A stretch of 21,537 nt of DNA. Source: a virus. Within the stretch, counting starts at the first letter, position 1. Each line of letters begins with the position of its first letter. The notes under the pieces are model-generated. The model was given only the letters and a program-made list of their open reading frames with translations, did no database searches and was not told the DNA's origin. Positions 1-7,078 of the stretch are shown piece after piece. The position numbers were made by a program, and so were the translations under genes. Location: IMG/VR virus record IMGVR_UViG_3300045135_003619, positions 1 through 21,537 of that record. The stretch is one strand, 5' to 3'.

Positions 1-1257
1 TTATCCGGCCAGCGTAACCTGCGCCGTTTTCTCGCCCGATCTTTCCTTCAACCCGACCACCACCATCCCCGTCAAATGCCAGACGGCCGCCATCATGATC
101 CCCATATTGAAGGCAAACTCGTTGGCGCAGCTCTGCTTGAAGAACTCCCCCTCGAGGAACATGCAGGATCCCTTGCAGAGCTGAACGACGGGGCATGACA
201 TGCACTCGTCCCGGAATGCAAAGTGCGTCGCGGTATCGAGCGCGATGGCGTCAAAGTCGGCGACATGACCGATCTTGTGCACGCCCTTCGCACCGGTGTT
301 CTGGCAGGTCATGACGTTCCCGCGCAGGTCGACGGCGATGGCGTCGGGGCTGTCCATCCCGCATTTCTGGCCAAGGGCCTCGAGCGGCCGCCGACGTTGA
401 ATGGAGGCATAGAATTCGTTGATGCGCTCGCCAAGGCCGAAGGCATTCGGGTCCTCGACCAGTTCTTCGAAAATCGACCGCGTCAGGCTGTTCAACTCGG
501 CCGGCTCGAACCGCCCTGTGCCGATGGCGGTCGCGGCGTCATAAACATTCACCACGCCCTCGAGCCCGACGAAGATGTCCGGCCCAACCTTTTCGGCGAA
601 CCAGGCCTTGAGGGCCCGAAGGTCGTGATGCTGGCGCGTCAGCACCGCATTGAACCCGGTCTTTTCGGGGCGCTCGGCCAACAGGGTTTGGATCCAGTGT
701 CTCTTGTCAGGATCGTCGAACGGATCCGGCCCGCGCAGATGCTGCCCCGGGCCATCATGAGAGATTGTGATCGCGATGTCATGCGTGGAGATGAAGTCGA
801 GCTTCTCGCGGTCAAGGAGTGATCCGTTGGTGATGATCGAGAAGGTAGCCGTAGGGAACCGCGCCGCCAACGCCGGCACCAACCGCTTGATCTTGCCCCA
901 ATAAAGAAACGGCTCGCCACCCCAGAGCTCGATCTTTTCCGGGGCGTCGGTGATCCAACTGTCGAGCTGAGTCAGGAAGTGCTCGACATCGGCCAGCTTC
1001 GAGACCGTGGCATCGGCGATCTGGAAGGCCTGGCTGCAATAGCTGCAGGCATAATTGCAGGAGAGCCCAAGCTGGATTTTCAACACACGAGGCGCTCGTG
1101 ATTTTCCGATGGGCTTGTCTTTGGCCACGCGCGGTACCGGCGCAAATATCCCCGGTTCTACCGGCAGCGGCAGCCCCTCGCATTCCGATGTGTGCGGGTT
1201 GTAGTGTGCGTGGTGGCGGCTGCCGTCACGCGCTTCCAGTGTCAGATCAAACCACAT
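1..1257 (-). CDS. Radical SAM/SPASM peptide-maturase-like enzyme
   Basis: Complete 418-aa protein ending exactly at the window edge. The radical SAM cluster motif CxxxCxxC is at C67, C71, C74, with the SAM-binding GGEP at 113-116. The C-terminal part carries a full SPASM cysteine set: C299, then a G-x4-C ending at C318, then C352-x2-C355-x5-C361-x3-C365 and a last C377. That is the pattern seen in anaerobic sulfatase-maturating enzymes and RiPP maturases that hold two auxiliary [4Fe-4S] clusters. Members of this family modify ribosomal peptides or proteins, for example by thioether or C-C crosslinks or Cys/Ser oxidation. The start overlaps the stop of the upstream oxygenase (TGATG), so it is translationally coupled. 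No sulfatase is nearby; the obvious local substrate is the Cys-rich protein at 1892-2185, which is an inference. A hydrophobic stretch at about 385-402 is odd but short. The family is secure; the substrate is not known. Confidence 0.9.
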
Positions 1258-1889
1258 CAGTCGAACAGCCTTTCTTCAATCGCCGTTGGCAGGTTGACCC
1301 GGAAGTTCGCAACGACCTGCACATGCGGCGCGCTCCCCTCATAGGGGTGCTGGTTGTGGGGGATATGGGAGGGGAAGAAGACCGAGAGCCCCGGCCGCGG
1401 ATTGACCGAGAAGCCATGGCGGCTCTCATAAGGCAGCCGCCCCTCATCGAAATATCGCGACGGATCCTCGATCACGAAGCGCGGGGTGCCCACGCTATTC
1501 ACCGGCTGGCCCGACCCACTGCCGGTCAGGAAGTGGACGCAGGTCAGATCCCCCTCGCGGCTATCCTTGTGGGTCGAGATGAAGCCGCCTTTCTCGATGA
1601 CGAGGGCGCGGTTTTCGCAATGGCGGGGGTCGAGATATTGGGCCCAAGGGCCAAGCACGGCGCGCGCGCAAGCGAAGAGATGGGCTTTCAGGGTCTGACC
1701 GGCTGCGCTTTTCTCAAGTATGCCGCGCACCCGACGCTCAGCCGCGCTCAGCGGCCTGGCACCCCCTTCCCCGCCCACGGCCGCAATGGCCTCATCCGCT
1801 AGCTGGCGATTGACCTCCCAGCCCACCGGCGCTTCAAAAAAGCTGACATGGGTGGGCCAGAGCGCAAGGTTTGTCTGCTGAACTTGCAT
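1257..1889 (-). CDS. 2OG-Fe(II) oxygenase-like protein (second copy)
   Basis: 210-aa protein counted from the ATG at 1889, two bases after the stop of the Cys-rich gene; an in-frame GTG at 1898 overlapping that stop is an alternative start. The likely facial-triad motif is H107-K-D109, with a distal histidine in the segment FFPSHIPHNQH (H175/H178/H181) and a probable 2-oxoglutarate-binding R197 in VANFRVNL. This matches the prolyl-4-hydroxylase-like branch of the 2OG dioxygenases, which hydroxylate Pro, Asn, Asp or other side chains. The N-terminus (hydrophobic residues, WPTHV, then APVGW) resembles that of the other oxygenase at 2175-2915 (IYPAFV, MPVGF), so the two are probably distant paralogues. 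Its stop overlaps the radical SAM start. Its position directly after the Cys-rich gene suggests a modifying enzyme. Substrate unknown. Confidence 0.78.
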   Translation of the reverse strand: MQVQQTNLALWPTHVSFFEAPVGWEVNRQLADEAIAAVGGEGGARPLSAAERRVRGILEKSAAGQTLKAHLFACARAVLGPWAQYLDPRHCENRALVIEKGGFISTHKDSREGDLTCVHFLTGSGSGQPVNSVGTPRFVIEDPSRYFDEGRLPYESRHGFSVNPRPGLSVFFPSHIPHNQHPYEGSAPHVQVVANFRVNLPTAIEERLFD

Positions 1890-1891
1890 CG

Positions 1892-2185
1892 TCAGCACCG
1901 GCAGGCGCAGTTACAGTTGAAGTAGGCGAGATTGGCTGTGACGGATACGTCTCCAGTAGCGCCGCCCCCTGAGAGGCTCGCGACATAGCAGTTGGCCGTA
2001 CAATTGCAGTTCCCACCCCCGCTTCCACTCACCGCAAAGAAGGGAGATCCCGTGGAGGGCGTGCCATTGGCAACCGTCACGGATGTGATGTCACCGGCCC
2101 CAATCGCGGGCTTGTTGGCAATGCGGGACCAATCCACAAAGCCGCTGTCGTCGATCACGATGGTGGTTCCGACCTTATAGGCCAT
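1892..2185 (-). CDS. Cysteine-rich tail-fibre-like small protein (candidate modified peptide precursor)
   Basis: 97-aa protein. Residues about 17-40 (VDWSRIANKPAIG, GDITSV) look like the repeat of phage tail fibres; compare PWAGITGKP in the 327-aa fibre upstream. A Gly/Ser-rich linker leads into two cysteine clusters: C60, C62, C66 (NCNCTANC) and C91, C93, C95, C97 (FNCNCACRC), the last Cys being the C-terminal residue. Seven cysteines in 38 residues is striking for a phage structural-type protein. The ATG at 2185 overlaps the end of the upstream oxygenase by 11 bases, and the next oxygenase starts 2 bases after its stop, so the precursor sits between two 2OG oxygenases and before a radical SAM/SPASM enzyme. 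I infer a modified tail-tip or fibre component with a leader-like N-terminus. Alternatives are a metal-binding or disulfide-linked tail protein that is not modified. No signal peptide is visible. Confidence 0.8.
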   Translation of the reverse strand: MAYKVGTTIVIDDSGFVDWSRIANKPAIGAGDITSVTVANGTPSTGSPFFAVSGSGGGNCNCTANCYVASLSGGGATGDVSVTANLAYFNCNCACRC

Positions 2186-2915
2186 GGCTGTCTCCTTGCG
2201 CCTGATGGGCCAGGATCTCTGAGAGACCGGCCTTGCAGTGGGAATTTGGGAGATCGAGGGAGCAAAGGACTGGGATGCACATCCGCTCCTCGCCCTCAAA
2301 ATAGGTGCTGTCATGGGGCAGATGCCCCTCGAAGACGAGCATGGAGCCCGTCTTGGGCTCGACCGCGTACCAGCCGCCGACATAGGCGTTCGGGTTGTTG
2401 CAGGGCCACAGCCGCTTGCCGACATTCGCGGGATCGTAAAACCGCACAGCCCCACGATGGAGCGAGGTCTCGGGGCAATCCGCGTCCAGCACGACCCGCG
2501 GGTAATAGGTACAGACGATGTCCGTCTGGATATGGGTGTGGGTGTTGATGCCGACATTTTCCCGTGCGGCACGCCGCTGCCAGAACGTGTCCGACATCAT
2601 GGCGATCTCGCCGGTATGATCATATCCGTAAGCCAACTGCAGGTATTCCCGCACGGCCGCCGCCACCATCTGCGCCAGCACCGCAATCGCCGGGTCCTGC
2701 CGATCCATCAGGAAGTTGTGGCGCAGATGTCCAAGATGGTTGGTCTGATCCCCGACGTTGCGTCCGTCACCCGCATCTTGAATGCGGTTCGCCACAGCGT
2801 CCTCAGCCGCCAGCGCGTACAGGCGGTCATTGAAGCCCACGGGCATGTCCCAATGCTTGTGCAGGACGAAGGCCGGGTAGATCAGCTGGAACTCGGTCGT
2901 GGTCGCGATCTCCAT
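2175..2915 (-). CDS. 2OG-Fe(II) oxygenase, TIGR02466-like
   Basis: 246-aa protein. The reading frame is open further upstream, but the ATG at 2915 gives the family-like N-terminus and overlaps the upstream stop (TGATG). The Fe-binding region is NTHTHIQTD (H126, H128, D132), followed by a beta strand ending TYYP as in PF13759/TIGR02466 proteins. The distal part has VFEGHLPHDS (H198/H201) and R211, the expected second His and the 2OG-binding Arg. TIGR02466-type putative 2OG oxygenases are common in marine phages, often beside structural genes, and their substrates are mostly unknown. Here it is followed immediately by the Cys-rich protein and preceded by collagen-like fibres, either of which could be hydroxylated. 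Enzyme family fairly secure; function inferred. Confidence 0.85.
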   Translation of the reverse strand: MEIATTTEFQLIYPAFVLHKHWDMPVGFNDRLYALAAEDAVANRIQDAGDGRNVGDQTNHLGHLRHNFLMDRQDPAIAVLAQMVAAAVREYLQLAYGYDHTGEIAMMSDTFWQRRAARENVGINTHTHIQTDIVCTYYPRVVLDADCPETSLHRGAVRFYDPANVGKRLWPCNNPNAYVGGWYAVEPKTGSMLVFEGHLPHDSTYFEGEERMCIPVLCSLDLPNSHCKAGLSEILAHQAQGDSHGL

Positions 2916-3823
2916 CACACCACCTCCAGGATGATCTTGCCGATCGCGGTGTAATGCTCGGTGTTGATCTTGACTGCTATCTGATCTCCCGGACTGAGCC
3001 CCAAGGCCTCGATAGCAAAGCTGCCCACTCCGCTCGCATCGGTCCTCAGCCGCCGTTTTGGCAGATAGCCGGCGTCGCTTTCGAGCTTTAGCACCAGCGC
3101 GTGTGCGCAGGACGCGCCATCCACATTCCAACTGAGCGCCACAGGTACTTGGGCACGGCCGCCTGCAGGAACGGTAACAGATTCCTCCGTTGCCACCGCG
3201 TGGAAATAGAACTGCTTGAACCACTGCCCGTTATTCGGGATTGTCGCGTCATCGATCCGGCCCGCAATGGTGGTCCCGTTCAAGAGGATGGGGTCCTGAT
3301 CGCAGAGGATCTCGATCCGGGCCGAGGAGAGCGGCCCCTTGATCGGCATGAAGATCACGAGGGCGTTGGCCGCTTGCACACGTGCGCGGTGGCGGAAAGA
3401 GAGATCAACTTTTTCGCGGGCGGATTGGGCAAAGCGATTACGCCAGGGCAGCGGAAAGCCCTGTGCGTCTGTCATAATGTCGATGAGCGCATAATCGGTG
3501 ATTTCATCATGGCCGCGCATGCCGTCGAGGAAGACATAGGACCGGCCTTTATAGATCCCGCCATGGGTACAGCCTGGAAGGTCGGGCACAAAAAGCCCAT
3601 TGCCGCGCATATCAACGAAGCCAGCGCCCCGGTCCTGATCAAAGGGCGTGGCGAGTTCTGCCGAGAGTTCTGCCCATTCCATGGCGCCAACACTGTTGCG
3701 CAGGCCCTCGCCAGCCCCGCAGCGCGCAAAGACGGCGATCCCGGCATAGGTCTCTTGGACATCGACAGCGTAATGAAGTGGCGTGCCCGTGTTATAGATG
3801 ACATGCAGTCCGGTCTCGATCAT
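2915..3823 (-). CDS. Hypothetical protein of the fibre/modification operon
   Basis: 302-aa protein that I do not recognise as a named family. The N-terminal about 200 residues have many aromatic and Gly/Asp residues (for example [15 protein letters not shown]) and suggest a beta-rich fold that might bind carbohydrate or ligand. The last about 80 residues (from [13 protein letters not shown] on) look like an Ig- or invasin-like beta sandwich. There is no signal peptide or membrane helix. The ATG at 3823 overlaps the upstream fibre stop by four bases (ATGA), and its own stop overlaps the oxygenase start. Its position between the S74 fibre and the modifying enzymes suggests a virion appendage protein, or a partner of the fibre, rather than a host gene. 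Confidence 0.75.
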
Positions 3824-4770
3824 GGCATGGTCCTTTTCAGCTGATCAACCTCCTGAGCGAGGTCCTTGATGGCCTCTACGAGGAGGCCCACGAGATTGCC
3901 GTAGGCCAGACGCAGCACGCCTTCGGCCTCAACGACGGCCTCTGGCGCGACGGCCTGCACCTCTTGTGCAATGAGACCCATCTGCCGCGCGTCGCTGCCC
4001 GCCATGGTGAAGGTGACGCCGCTCAGCGCCTGCACCTTGGCCAGCGCATCTGCGATAGGCGCGATATCGGACTTGAGCCGTGCGTCCGACGAGGAGACGA
4101 AGTTCGGTGCGGTCACCGTGCCAGAGAAGGTCGCCCCGCTCAGGAGTGCGAAGGCACTGGCATGACTGCCATCAAGAAGATCGGCATCAATTCCCGACCC
4201 AGAGCCATCGACGGTTACCAGCTTGGCACGTACCTGCGCGGCCGTGTCGGGAGACCCATCCGCCCCTGCGGGGCCTTGTGGACCCGTAGCCCCGGTGGCA
4301 CCCGTGGGACCCGCAGGTCCCTGCGGTCCTGTTGGGCCGGTGGCGCCAGTATCACCCTTGGCTCCGGTCGCACCTGTTGCCCCGGTAGCACCTTTCAGGT
4401 TTACGTAAGCACCCCAGGTCGATCCGTTGAAAAACCGCAGACTGGTGCCAGACCATTGATGCGCTGGTGTTGGTCCTGTGGCGCCCGACGAACCCTGAGG
4501 ACCTGTTGCGCCTATGTCACCTTTCGGGCCTGTTGCCCCCGTTGGACCCGTGGGACCCTGAGGCCCTGTTGGCCCGGTCGCGCCTTGAGGACCGGCCGGT
4601 CCTTGCGGTCCAGTTTGTCCGAGCTCGATCACGGTTTCGGCGCCAGAGACACGCTTCAGAAAAAGCTTTCCGTCGGTGACATTCACTGCCAACTCACCAG
4701 CAGCGAGTTGTGCCGTGCTGGGTACCCGGCCGGCCACGGTCGTTCGTTTTACCAGAACGGTATTTGCCAT
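3820..4770 (-). CDS. Collagen-like tail fibre with C-terminal S74 intramolecular chaperone
   Basis: 316-aa protein. Residues 1-50 form an anchor-like domain shared with the next fibre upstream (MANTxxxKR start, then AAGELAVN). Gly-X-Y triplets run at 53-100 and 127-172, flanking a 25-residue non-collagen insert ([17 protein letters not shown]). From about 218 comes a peptidase S74/endosialidase chaperone domain with SSSDARLK (S226-K233), the usual site where such domains cleave themselves off after trimer assembly, and a C-terminal coiled coil. Prolines are mostly in the X position of the triplets, not the Y position hydroxylated in animal collagen. Likely a trimeric receptor-binding or side fibre. 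The S74 domain is closely related to that in the 218-aa fibre at 9008-9664. Confidence 0.88.
4255..4614 (-). repeat. Collagen-type Gly-X-Y repeats
   Basis: Two blocks, 4471-4614 and 4255-4392, of Gly-X-Y triplets in the 316-aa fibre, separated by a folded insert. Triplets are mainly GPQ, GPT, GAT and GPA. Confidence 0.8.
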
Positions 4771-6394: not shown

Positions 6395-7078
6395 ATGCGC
6401 CAGTCGGACCAGGACCTCGATCGCCTCAGCGAATTGCTCTTCGCACTGCCGCAGGAGAATTTCCCAATGACGTTGAGCGAACTCGATGGCTATTTGACCG
6501 GCGTTCTGGCCTGCCCAGAGATGATCCCACCCTCGGACTGGCTCCCCCATGTTTGGGGCGAAACAGCCGAGGCGAACTTTCCAGATCTGAAGAGCGCAGA
6601 GGAAACAATCGGCGCCGTTATGGCGCATTACAACTCGATCGCCTCAACACTGAGCGAGACACCTTATCTTGAGCCAATTTACGAGGTAGATCCCAATAGC
6701 GACGAGACATTGTGGGAGCCGTGGGTCGATGGGTTTACCCGTGCCATGCGGTTGCGCTCCGAGGCTTGGGAAGCACTTCTCGACCGTGCAGACGAAGAGA
6801 CGCGCTCCTCGATGATTTTTTTGATGGCGTTGCAAGACATTTACGAGGGTAAGAGCACATTCAGCGAAGATGAGATTGACGAGATTGATCTTGAAGCGCC
6901 CGATCTCGTCCCAAACTGCGTTGCGGCTATTTTGTTTGAGTCCCGCCCAGAGCTTGGGGCCACAGCCATGCCCAACTTACCGGACGCTCCGTTTCGCGCG
7001 GCACCACGTCCCGGGCGCAATGATCCATGCCCCTGCGGCTCTGGGCACAAATACAAACACTGCTGCGGTAAGAATTGA
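6395..7078 (+). CDS. UPF0149 (YecA-like) protein with SEC-C zinc motif
   Basis: 227-aa protein. The body matches the UPF0149/YecA family: MTLSELDGYLTG near residue 25, then a helical region with conserved Trp and Glu. The C-terminus is a SEC-C zinc motif, NDPCPCGSG then KHCC (C212, C214, C223, C224), like the zinc tail of SecA, known to bind zinc in SecA and related proteins. The start is supported by CGGAG upstream. It is one of only two plus-strand genes and sits between the spanins and the fibre operon, so it is likely a cargo (moron) gene with its own promoter. Base composition is a little lower in GC than the structural genes. Role in the phage unknown; a protein-quality or ribosome-linked role is a family-based guess. 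Confidence 0.85.
   Translation: MRQSDQDLDRLSELLFALPQENFPMTLSELDGYLTGVLACPEMIPPSDWLPHVWGETAEANFPDLKSAEETIGAVMAHYNSIASTLSETPYLEPIYEVDPNSDETLWEPWVDGFTRAMRLRSEAWEALLDRADEETRSSMIFLMALQDIYEGKSTFSEDEIDEIDLEAPDLVPNCVAAILFESRPELGATAMPNLPDAPFRAAPRPGRNDPCPCGSGHKYKHCCGKN

Follow-up and report, generated by a model that had tools for sequence, protein, structure and literature searches.

A phage-encoded SPASM radical SAM enzyme is paired with cysteine-tract tail-fibre genes and probably cross-links tail-fibre tips

The window, by which we mean the whole stretch of DNA analysed (21,537 nucleotides), is a 21.5-kb virus record with a minus-strand head-tail module that includes a major head protein, a tape measure, a central fibre J, and collagen and S74 fibres. 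A radical SAM enzyme gene lies on the same strand, which agrees with the phage origin proposed for it in an earlier interpretation made from the letters of the DNA (here, the sequence-only reading). The genes and features of the enzyme's neighbourhood are as follows.

1..1257, minus strand: radical SAM/SPASM enzyme, 418 aa, PHROG 1802
1257..1889, minus strand: 2OG-Fe(II) oxygenase-like protein (PF13759, weak, E = 0.011; PHROG 81, E = 3.6e-6)
1892..2185, minus strand: 97-aa candidate substrate, with conserved N-terminus MAYKVGTTIVIDDSGFVDWSRI, variable middle, and C-terminal YFNCNCACRC
1895..1918, minus strand: (X-Cys)4 tract NCNCACRC, residues 90-97, at the C-terminal end of the 97-aa protein
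1988..2011, minus strand: Cys-rich stretch NCNCTANC inside the protein (residues 59-66), which many relatives have and others lack
2175..2915, minus strand: second 2OG-Fe(II) oxygenase-like protein (TIGR02466, E = 2.9e-8; PHROG 81, E = 5e-10)
2915..3823, minus strand: 302-aa protein with no recognised domain, regularly found with the enzyme
3820..4770, minus strand: collagen-repeat tail fibre with C-terminal S74 chaperone (context)

The oxygenase-like protein at 1257-1889 has the HxD and distal H residues when inspected by eye, and genes related to it were detected by BLAST in 37 of 80 prophage loci. The second oxygenase (2175-2915) matched PF13759 at E = 1.3e-5, just under the cut-off. We also detected a UPF0149/SEC-C protein (E = 6.8e-33) encoded on the plus strand at window positions 6395-7078, inside the minus-strand tail module, which is probably a cargo gene.

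The enzyme gene is a single open frame that starts with ATG at position 1257 and stops with TAA at positions 1-3. Its 418-aa product matched the Pfam family Radical_SAM (E = 1.2e-8) and, over residues 49-386, PHROG 1802, annotated as "radical SAM domain-containing protein" (E = 1.4e-53), and it scored above the cut-off of the NCBIfam SPASM domain TIGR04085 (30.2 bits versus 27). C67, C71, and C74 form the SAM-cluster motif CX3CX2C, and the seven SPASM cysteines (C299, C318, C352, C355, C361, C365, and C377) follow the pattern CX9-15GX4C, then CX2CX5CX3C, then a final cysteine. All 10 cluster cysteines are invariant across 28 aligned relatives, at identities down to approximately 32%, which bears out the earlier claim of a radical SAM enzyme with a complete SPASM cysteine set. 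Two auxiliary clusters had also been claimed; by sequence this was right, with the refinement that Aux I is left with only three cysteines. In the alignment, the interval from C299 to C318 is free of further cysteines, whereas anSMEcpe has its fourth Aux-I ligand, C261, at this place, and Aux I of the phage enzyme is accordingly predicted to be ligated by three cysteines, not four. The division of individual cysteines between Aux I and Aux II is one that we presume from homology and from the known anSME ligands. CteB has an open Aux-I site, whereas the clusters of anSME are fully ligated (PMC6231123).

The AlphaFold model of the enzyme (mean pLDDT 91.9, pTM 0.90) was structurally closest to CteB (Z 23.1) and ChlB (Z 22.7), followed by anSMEcpe (Z 20.8) and TigE (Z 18.4), with PqqE, SuiB, and SkfB as weaker matches. 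Sequence-profile comparison with solved structures was led by TigE (8vpo; E = 8e-23), anSMEcpe (E = 5e-18), and CteB; the closest of these, TigE, is not a known thioether enzyme. The sequence-only reading had proposed looking for an RRE-like peptide-recognition element in residues 1-55. That suggestion did not hold up: in the model, residues 1-30 form three short strands and contain no helix, which rules out a canonical winged-helix RRE, and the Pfam scan detected no PqqD-like domain in the enzyme. The N-terminal sheet of the model may nevertheless be able to bind a peptide.

The gene at 1892-2185, which the sequence-only reading missed, is located two genes upstream of the enzyme, between the two 2OG-oxygenase-like genes. 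Its ORF overlaps the upstream neighbour, and an AAGGAG site precedes its ATG. Among 27 relatives of the 97-aa protein, tract residues N90, C91, N92, C93, C95, and C97 are invariant, as are M1-G6, T8-I11, W19, and R21-I22. Comparison with the homologue in L082 gave a pS of 0.63 and a pN of 0.04, and across 21 relatives pN was 0.09 at both ends versus 0.34 in the middle; the codons inside the tract vary synonymously. These substitution patterns indicate that the ORF is a real gene under purifying selection, at both ends. A chance or microsatellite origin of the tract was ruled out by the synonymous codon variation, the purifying selection, and a GNGNGNG control described below. In four relatives (L004, L008, L024, and L025) the middle of the homologue is wholly swapped while the ends are kept, and the L004 enzyme is 90% identical to the window enzyme despite the swapped middle of its peptide. 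Conserved ends with a replaced middle are the pattern of a diversifying tip between constrained ends. Profile scans of the 97-aa protein gave no Pfam or PHROG matches, and its AlphaFold model was too poor for interpretation (pLDDT 64.6); its position, together with the longer proteins that bear the same tract elsewhere, suggests that it is a fibre protein.

Relatives of the enzyme were sampled from viral contigs (80 retained) and from prokaryote genomes (80 retained out of 234 confirmed). An ORF with a C-terminal CxCxC on the enzyme's strand was found in 53 of 80 viral loci and 60 of 80 prophage loci; where at least 4.5 kb of upstream sequence was available, these counts were 47 of 57 and 53 of 65. 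In both sets the nearest tract ORF, where present, was always upstream of the enzyme. The sequence-only reading had proposed a phage peptide or fibre as the substrate, and this recurrent, tract-bearing, tail-fibre-like gene upstream of the enzyme supports that part of it, while the RRE part failed.

The pairing is not universal. No CxC ORF was visible in 12 of the 65 prophage loci with room for one, for example in Ramlibacter L366 and Variovorax L368; among the loci without a tract ORF despite room are those of Ramlibacter and Variovorax and some rearranged loci. Five Ramlibacter and Variovorax loci (L365, L366, L368, L370, and L371) encode the enzyme, yet the tract ORF, the 302-aa gene, and the 2OG gene were not found nearby. 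These tract-less enzymes possibly act on another substrate or are relics. A relative in a cultured Campylobacter phage (approximately 30% identity over part of the protein) had no CxC gene nearby.

A reverse scan, blind to the enzyme, searched viral contigs for DNA coding CNCNCNC and so covered the Asn form of the tract. Among the matches listed, CNCNCNC ended an ORF of at least 80 aa at 51 loci, and the enzyme was present in 40 of these 51 loci, always on the same strand. The full record contained the enzyme for 5 of the remaining 11, giving 45 of 51 among the matches listed, and in the last 6 the contig ends 161 to 1,198 bases downstream of the ORF. Where the motif was noncoding, in a short frame, or internal, the enzyme was found in 3 of 67 loci, again among the matches listed. 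The matched control motif, GNGNGNG, had the enzyme in none of 120 loci, including none of the 41 C-terminal cases. The difference between 40 of 51 (among the matches listed) and 0 of 41 is significant by Fisher's test (P = 2.6e-16), with counts that are not all independent because some reverse-scan matches come from near-identical phages. The association of the enzyme with tract-bearing genes is shown; what we infer is that the tract is its substrate and is carried on the virion, as well as the chemistry and the biological role.

In 129 distinct tracts, the X of (X-Cys)n was mostly Asn (65%), Ala (15%), Asp (9%), or Arg (4%), with Asn and Asp together accounting for 74%, and most tracts had 4 to 6 cysteines (up to 10). 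The carriers are either small proteins of 60 to 130 aa or long tail fibres, many of them of 300 to 700 aa and the longest of 730 aa, and the tract occurs on otherwise unrelated fibre N-termini. Several carriers matched PHROG tail-fibre families (L170, E = 2e-70; L132, E = 2e-48; L211, E = 6e-14; L402, E = 2e-10), and P0003 also matches a tail-fibre profile; the L132 carrier has collagen repeats as well. No tail-fibre profile match was obtained for the carriers in L369, L364, L372, and L400. Some loci have two or three tandem tract-bearing small genes before one enzyme, with differing tails (L364:6479-6981, L029:5200-5981, and L369:4213-4680).

In six phages or prophages, a Hint-like domain directly follows the tract. 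In Achromobacter phage 2-1 (L347:6721-8163), the tract NCNCDCNCSC runs straight into a Hint-like domain (PF05203, E = 5e-12), and an FPAGT block after the tract is also found in L400, L415, L416, L418, and L427, although the Hint profile match is weak in L400 and L415. This arrangement suggests that the protein processes itself and thereby exposes the tract, which would be the mature C-terminus in these proteins too if the Hint domain does cleave itself.

We consider it likely that the enzyme is a SPASM maturase specific to phages and that it acts on the C-terminal (X-Cys)n tract with which a small, tail-fibre-like protein of the virion ends. Somewhat less firmly, we favour a broader reading, a system widespread among phages that has its own dedicated radical SAM enzyme for cross-linking virion tail fibres at their C-terminal (X-Cys)n tips and uses the fibre as leader. 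The cross-links would most likely be Cys-to-Asn/Asp/Ala thioethers; taken alone, a product with multiple thioethers in the tract would be a moderately probable outcome. In the window, the substrate would be the 97-aa protein encoded at 1892-2185, ending NCNCACRC, with its fibre part acting as the leader. The C67/C71/C74 cluster would cleave SAM, hydrogen would be abstracted from an Asn, Asp, or Ala of the tract, and a cysteine thiolate at the open Aux-I site, as proposed for CteB, would close the thioether. Repetition along the tract would yield a multiply cross-linked C-terminal knot at the fibre tip. In contrast to classic RiPPs, the leader would not be removed: the fibre would be the leader, and the modified end would stay on the virion. 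In some phages the Hint-like domain may trim the protein and make the tract its C-terminus. The knot would probably shield or stiffen the receptor-binding tip, or form part of it.

Thioethers are the likeliest product given the three-cysteine Aux I, CteB as the nearest fold, and the NxxcA-like spacing of the tract. Ranthipeptide links are made to the beta carbon, as in Cys23-Asn20 of NxxcA and the Cys-Asp links of freyrasin (PMC8326336), and the i to i+3 spacing of Cys23-Asn20 is equally available in NCNC. The cysteines are invariant while X varies, which suggests that the reacting groups are the cysteines. Weighing against this reading, X can also be Arg or another residue, and the same SPASM fold supports formylglycine, cyclopropane, C-C, and ether chemistries.

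An alternative hypothesis, which we regard as unlikely, is that the enzyme performs C-C, epimerising, or other radical chemistry on Asn, Ala, or Asp and leaves the cysteines free for metal or disulfides. TigE, the nearest solved sequence by profile, is consistent with this, as are the chemical diversity of SPASM enzymes (PMC6231123) and the peptide maturase TvgB, which acts repeatedly on a repeat motif (PMC9062424). However, invariant cysteines beside a variable X, and a three-cysteine Aux I that fits thiolate binding, argue for cysteines that react.

A slightly less probable alternative is that the enzyme, like an anSME, oxidises the tract cysteines to formylglycine, in which case the row of aldehydes could bind host amines covalently. 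Cysteine is the target residue of anSMEs, and anSMEcpe shares the fold and cluster set. In a tree of 47 proteins, however, the phage enzymes formed one 97% group and the anSMEs, including anSMEcpe, another. Forcing the phage clade and the anSMEs together cost 24.6 log units (p-AU 0.052), such that a sister relation is borderline rejected; of the phylogenetic check that had been proposed, the separation from anSMEs stood, and the firm exclusion of their union did not. The enzyme scored 37.5 bits against the anSME model TIGR03942, far below its cut-off of 349.45. The sequence-only reading had argued against anSME function from the lack of a nearby sulfatase, and the wider search agrees: a sulfatase was absent from 24 of 24 related records searched, whereas control genomes gave normal signals. 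anSME function was rejected on the separate clade, the absence of sulfatases from those records, the three-cysteine Aux I, and the low TIGR03942 score. Formylglycine formation on the tract is further disfavoured by the absence from it of the sulfatase-type CxPxR motif, and it leaves the preference for Asn, Ala, and Asp between the cysteines unexplained. The genomes of L350 (Thalassovita), L366 (Ramlibacter), and L402 (Limnohabitans) each had one SPASM match, which has the coordinates of the phage enzyme in L350 and L366 and which we assume to be the phage enzyme in L402 as well. Three other genomes had two or three SPASM matches each, at least some of which are prophage copies.

It is improbable that the tract is instead a metal- or disulfide-bonded tip while the enzyme acts elsewhere in the operon, with the collagen fibre and the 302-aa protein as examples of possible targets. 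Other phages are known to have tail tips that bear metal, and two companion families are frequent: the 302-aa family occurs in 58 of 80 prophage enzyme loci and window-type 2OG-oxygenases in 51 of 80, each versus 0 of 120 control loci. The tract, however, is the steadier partner. All 45 resolvable C-terminal CNCNCNC ORFs among the matches listed came with the enzyme, a pairing more constant than that with the 302-aa or 2OG genes, and the tract recurs on unrelated fibre N-termini. Under the preferred reading, in which the tract is the substrate, the collagen-repeat fibre at 3820-4770 is possibly also modified, and the 2OG-oxygenases may act as hydroxylases on tract residues, on the fibre, or on the collagen repeats of the fibre. 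Least probable is a phage-encoded secreted RiPP (a bacteriocin or signal) outside the virion: the small size and precursor-like layout in the window and in L029 and L364, the latter two with two or three tandem copies, would fit, but the window genes scanned include no peptidase or transporter, many relatives bear the tract on tail fibres of 300 to 700 aa, and the genes lie in the tail-fibre region.

Among known systems, the ranthipeptide maturases (CteB/SCIFF, PapB/freyrasin, and NxxcB) are most similar. They share the SPASM radical SAM fold, with CteB as the best structural match and also having a three-cysteine Aux I, and they have a Cys-rich partner encoded beside the enzyme, with Asn or Asp at NxxcA spacings. 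Unlike them, the phage enzyme is modelled without a canonical RRE and falls far below all family cut-offs (66.6 bits versus 340 for PapB, NF047865). Its partner is a tail-fibre protein that can reach 730 aa and carries the tract at the C-terminus, and no leader peptidase or exporter was seen among the ten genes scanned in the window, which ends at the enzyme's stop codon. The likeness to anSME lies in the SPASM fold and in action on a protein cysteine, and the differences are the separate clade, the lack of a sulfatase, and the missing fourth Aux-I cysteine. QhpD, the quinohemoprotein amine dehydrogenase maturase, is a radical SAM enzyme that forms Cys-Asp/Glu thioethers and does so in a structural protein, not in a peptide that is secreted (PMC8326336), but it is not sister to the phage clade in our tree and its substrate is unrelated. 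The nearest prior report that we found is Cluster 59 of the network of Kostenko et al. 2022, in which a recombinase gene and a radical SAM enzyme accompany a peptide whose Asp-Cys motif recurs up to six times, and whose product is stated there to be unknown (PMC9062424). The likeness is by description only, and no phage or tail-fibre link is described there. PHROG 1802, to which the window enzyme belongs, is filed as "other," an entry without a substrate, and the tract now gives it a probable one. The open-access literature, which was the scope of our search (subscription papers and preprints lay outside it), contained no paper linking radical SAM maturation to the tail fibres of phages.

What would be new is the class of substrate; the type of chemistry would be a known one. 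Elsewhere, maturation by radical SAM enzymes is known to serve secreted peptides, cofactors, and a small number of enzymes; if our reading is true, RiPP chemistry has here been transferred from such peptides to a structural protein of viruses. Phages that infect many different bacteria probably cross-link their own tail-fibre tips by chemistry in the style of peptide antibiotics, and maturation appears to be tied to the receptor-facing tail end in phages and prophages from several groups, including Rhodobacterales, Burkholderiales, and Rhodospirillales. This raises the question of whether a tail tip undergoes covalent hardening or activation once it has been translated. These loci, with their short and repetitive substrate motif, would also provide new cross-linking enzymes from a source that is genetically simple.

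Several loci depart from the arrangement in the window. A second, shorter radical SAM gene (approximately 335 aa), without the N-terminal extension, immediately precedes the main enzyme in L032 (4970-5968), L067 (4977-5984), and L150 (5437-6459). Thalassobacter stenotrophicus (L359, L360, L361, and L409) has several prophage copies of the enzyme within one strain, comprising three full loci and one contig-end fragment. In L115, L120, L187, L197, and L219, CNCNCNC tails or motifs adjoin far more distant radical SAM proteins (E of approximately 1e-38 to 1e-54 to the phage profile), and the fibre-like N-termini are different. Finally, the jumbo Erwinia phage EarlPhillipIV encodes a 128-aa protein rich in CSGxCSG-type repeats (L349:3032-3418) close to two radical SAM genes (L349:4980-7215), which is perhaps a parallel system with another motif.
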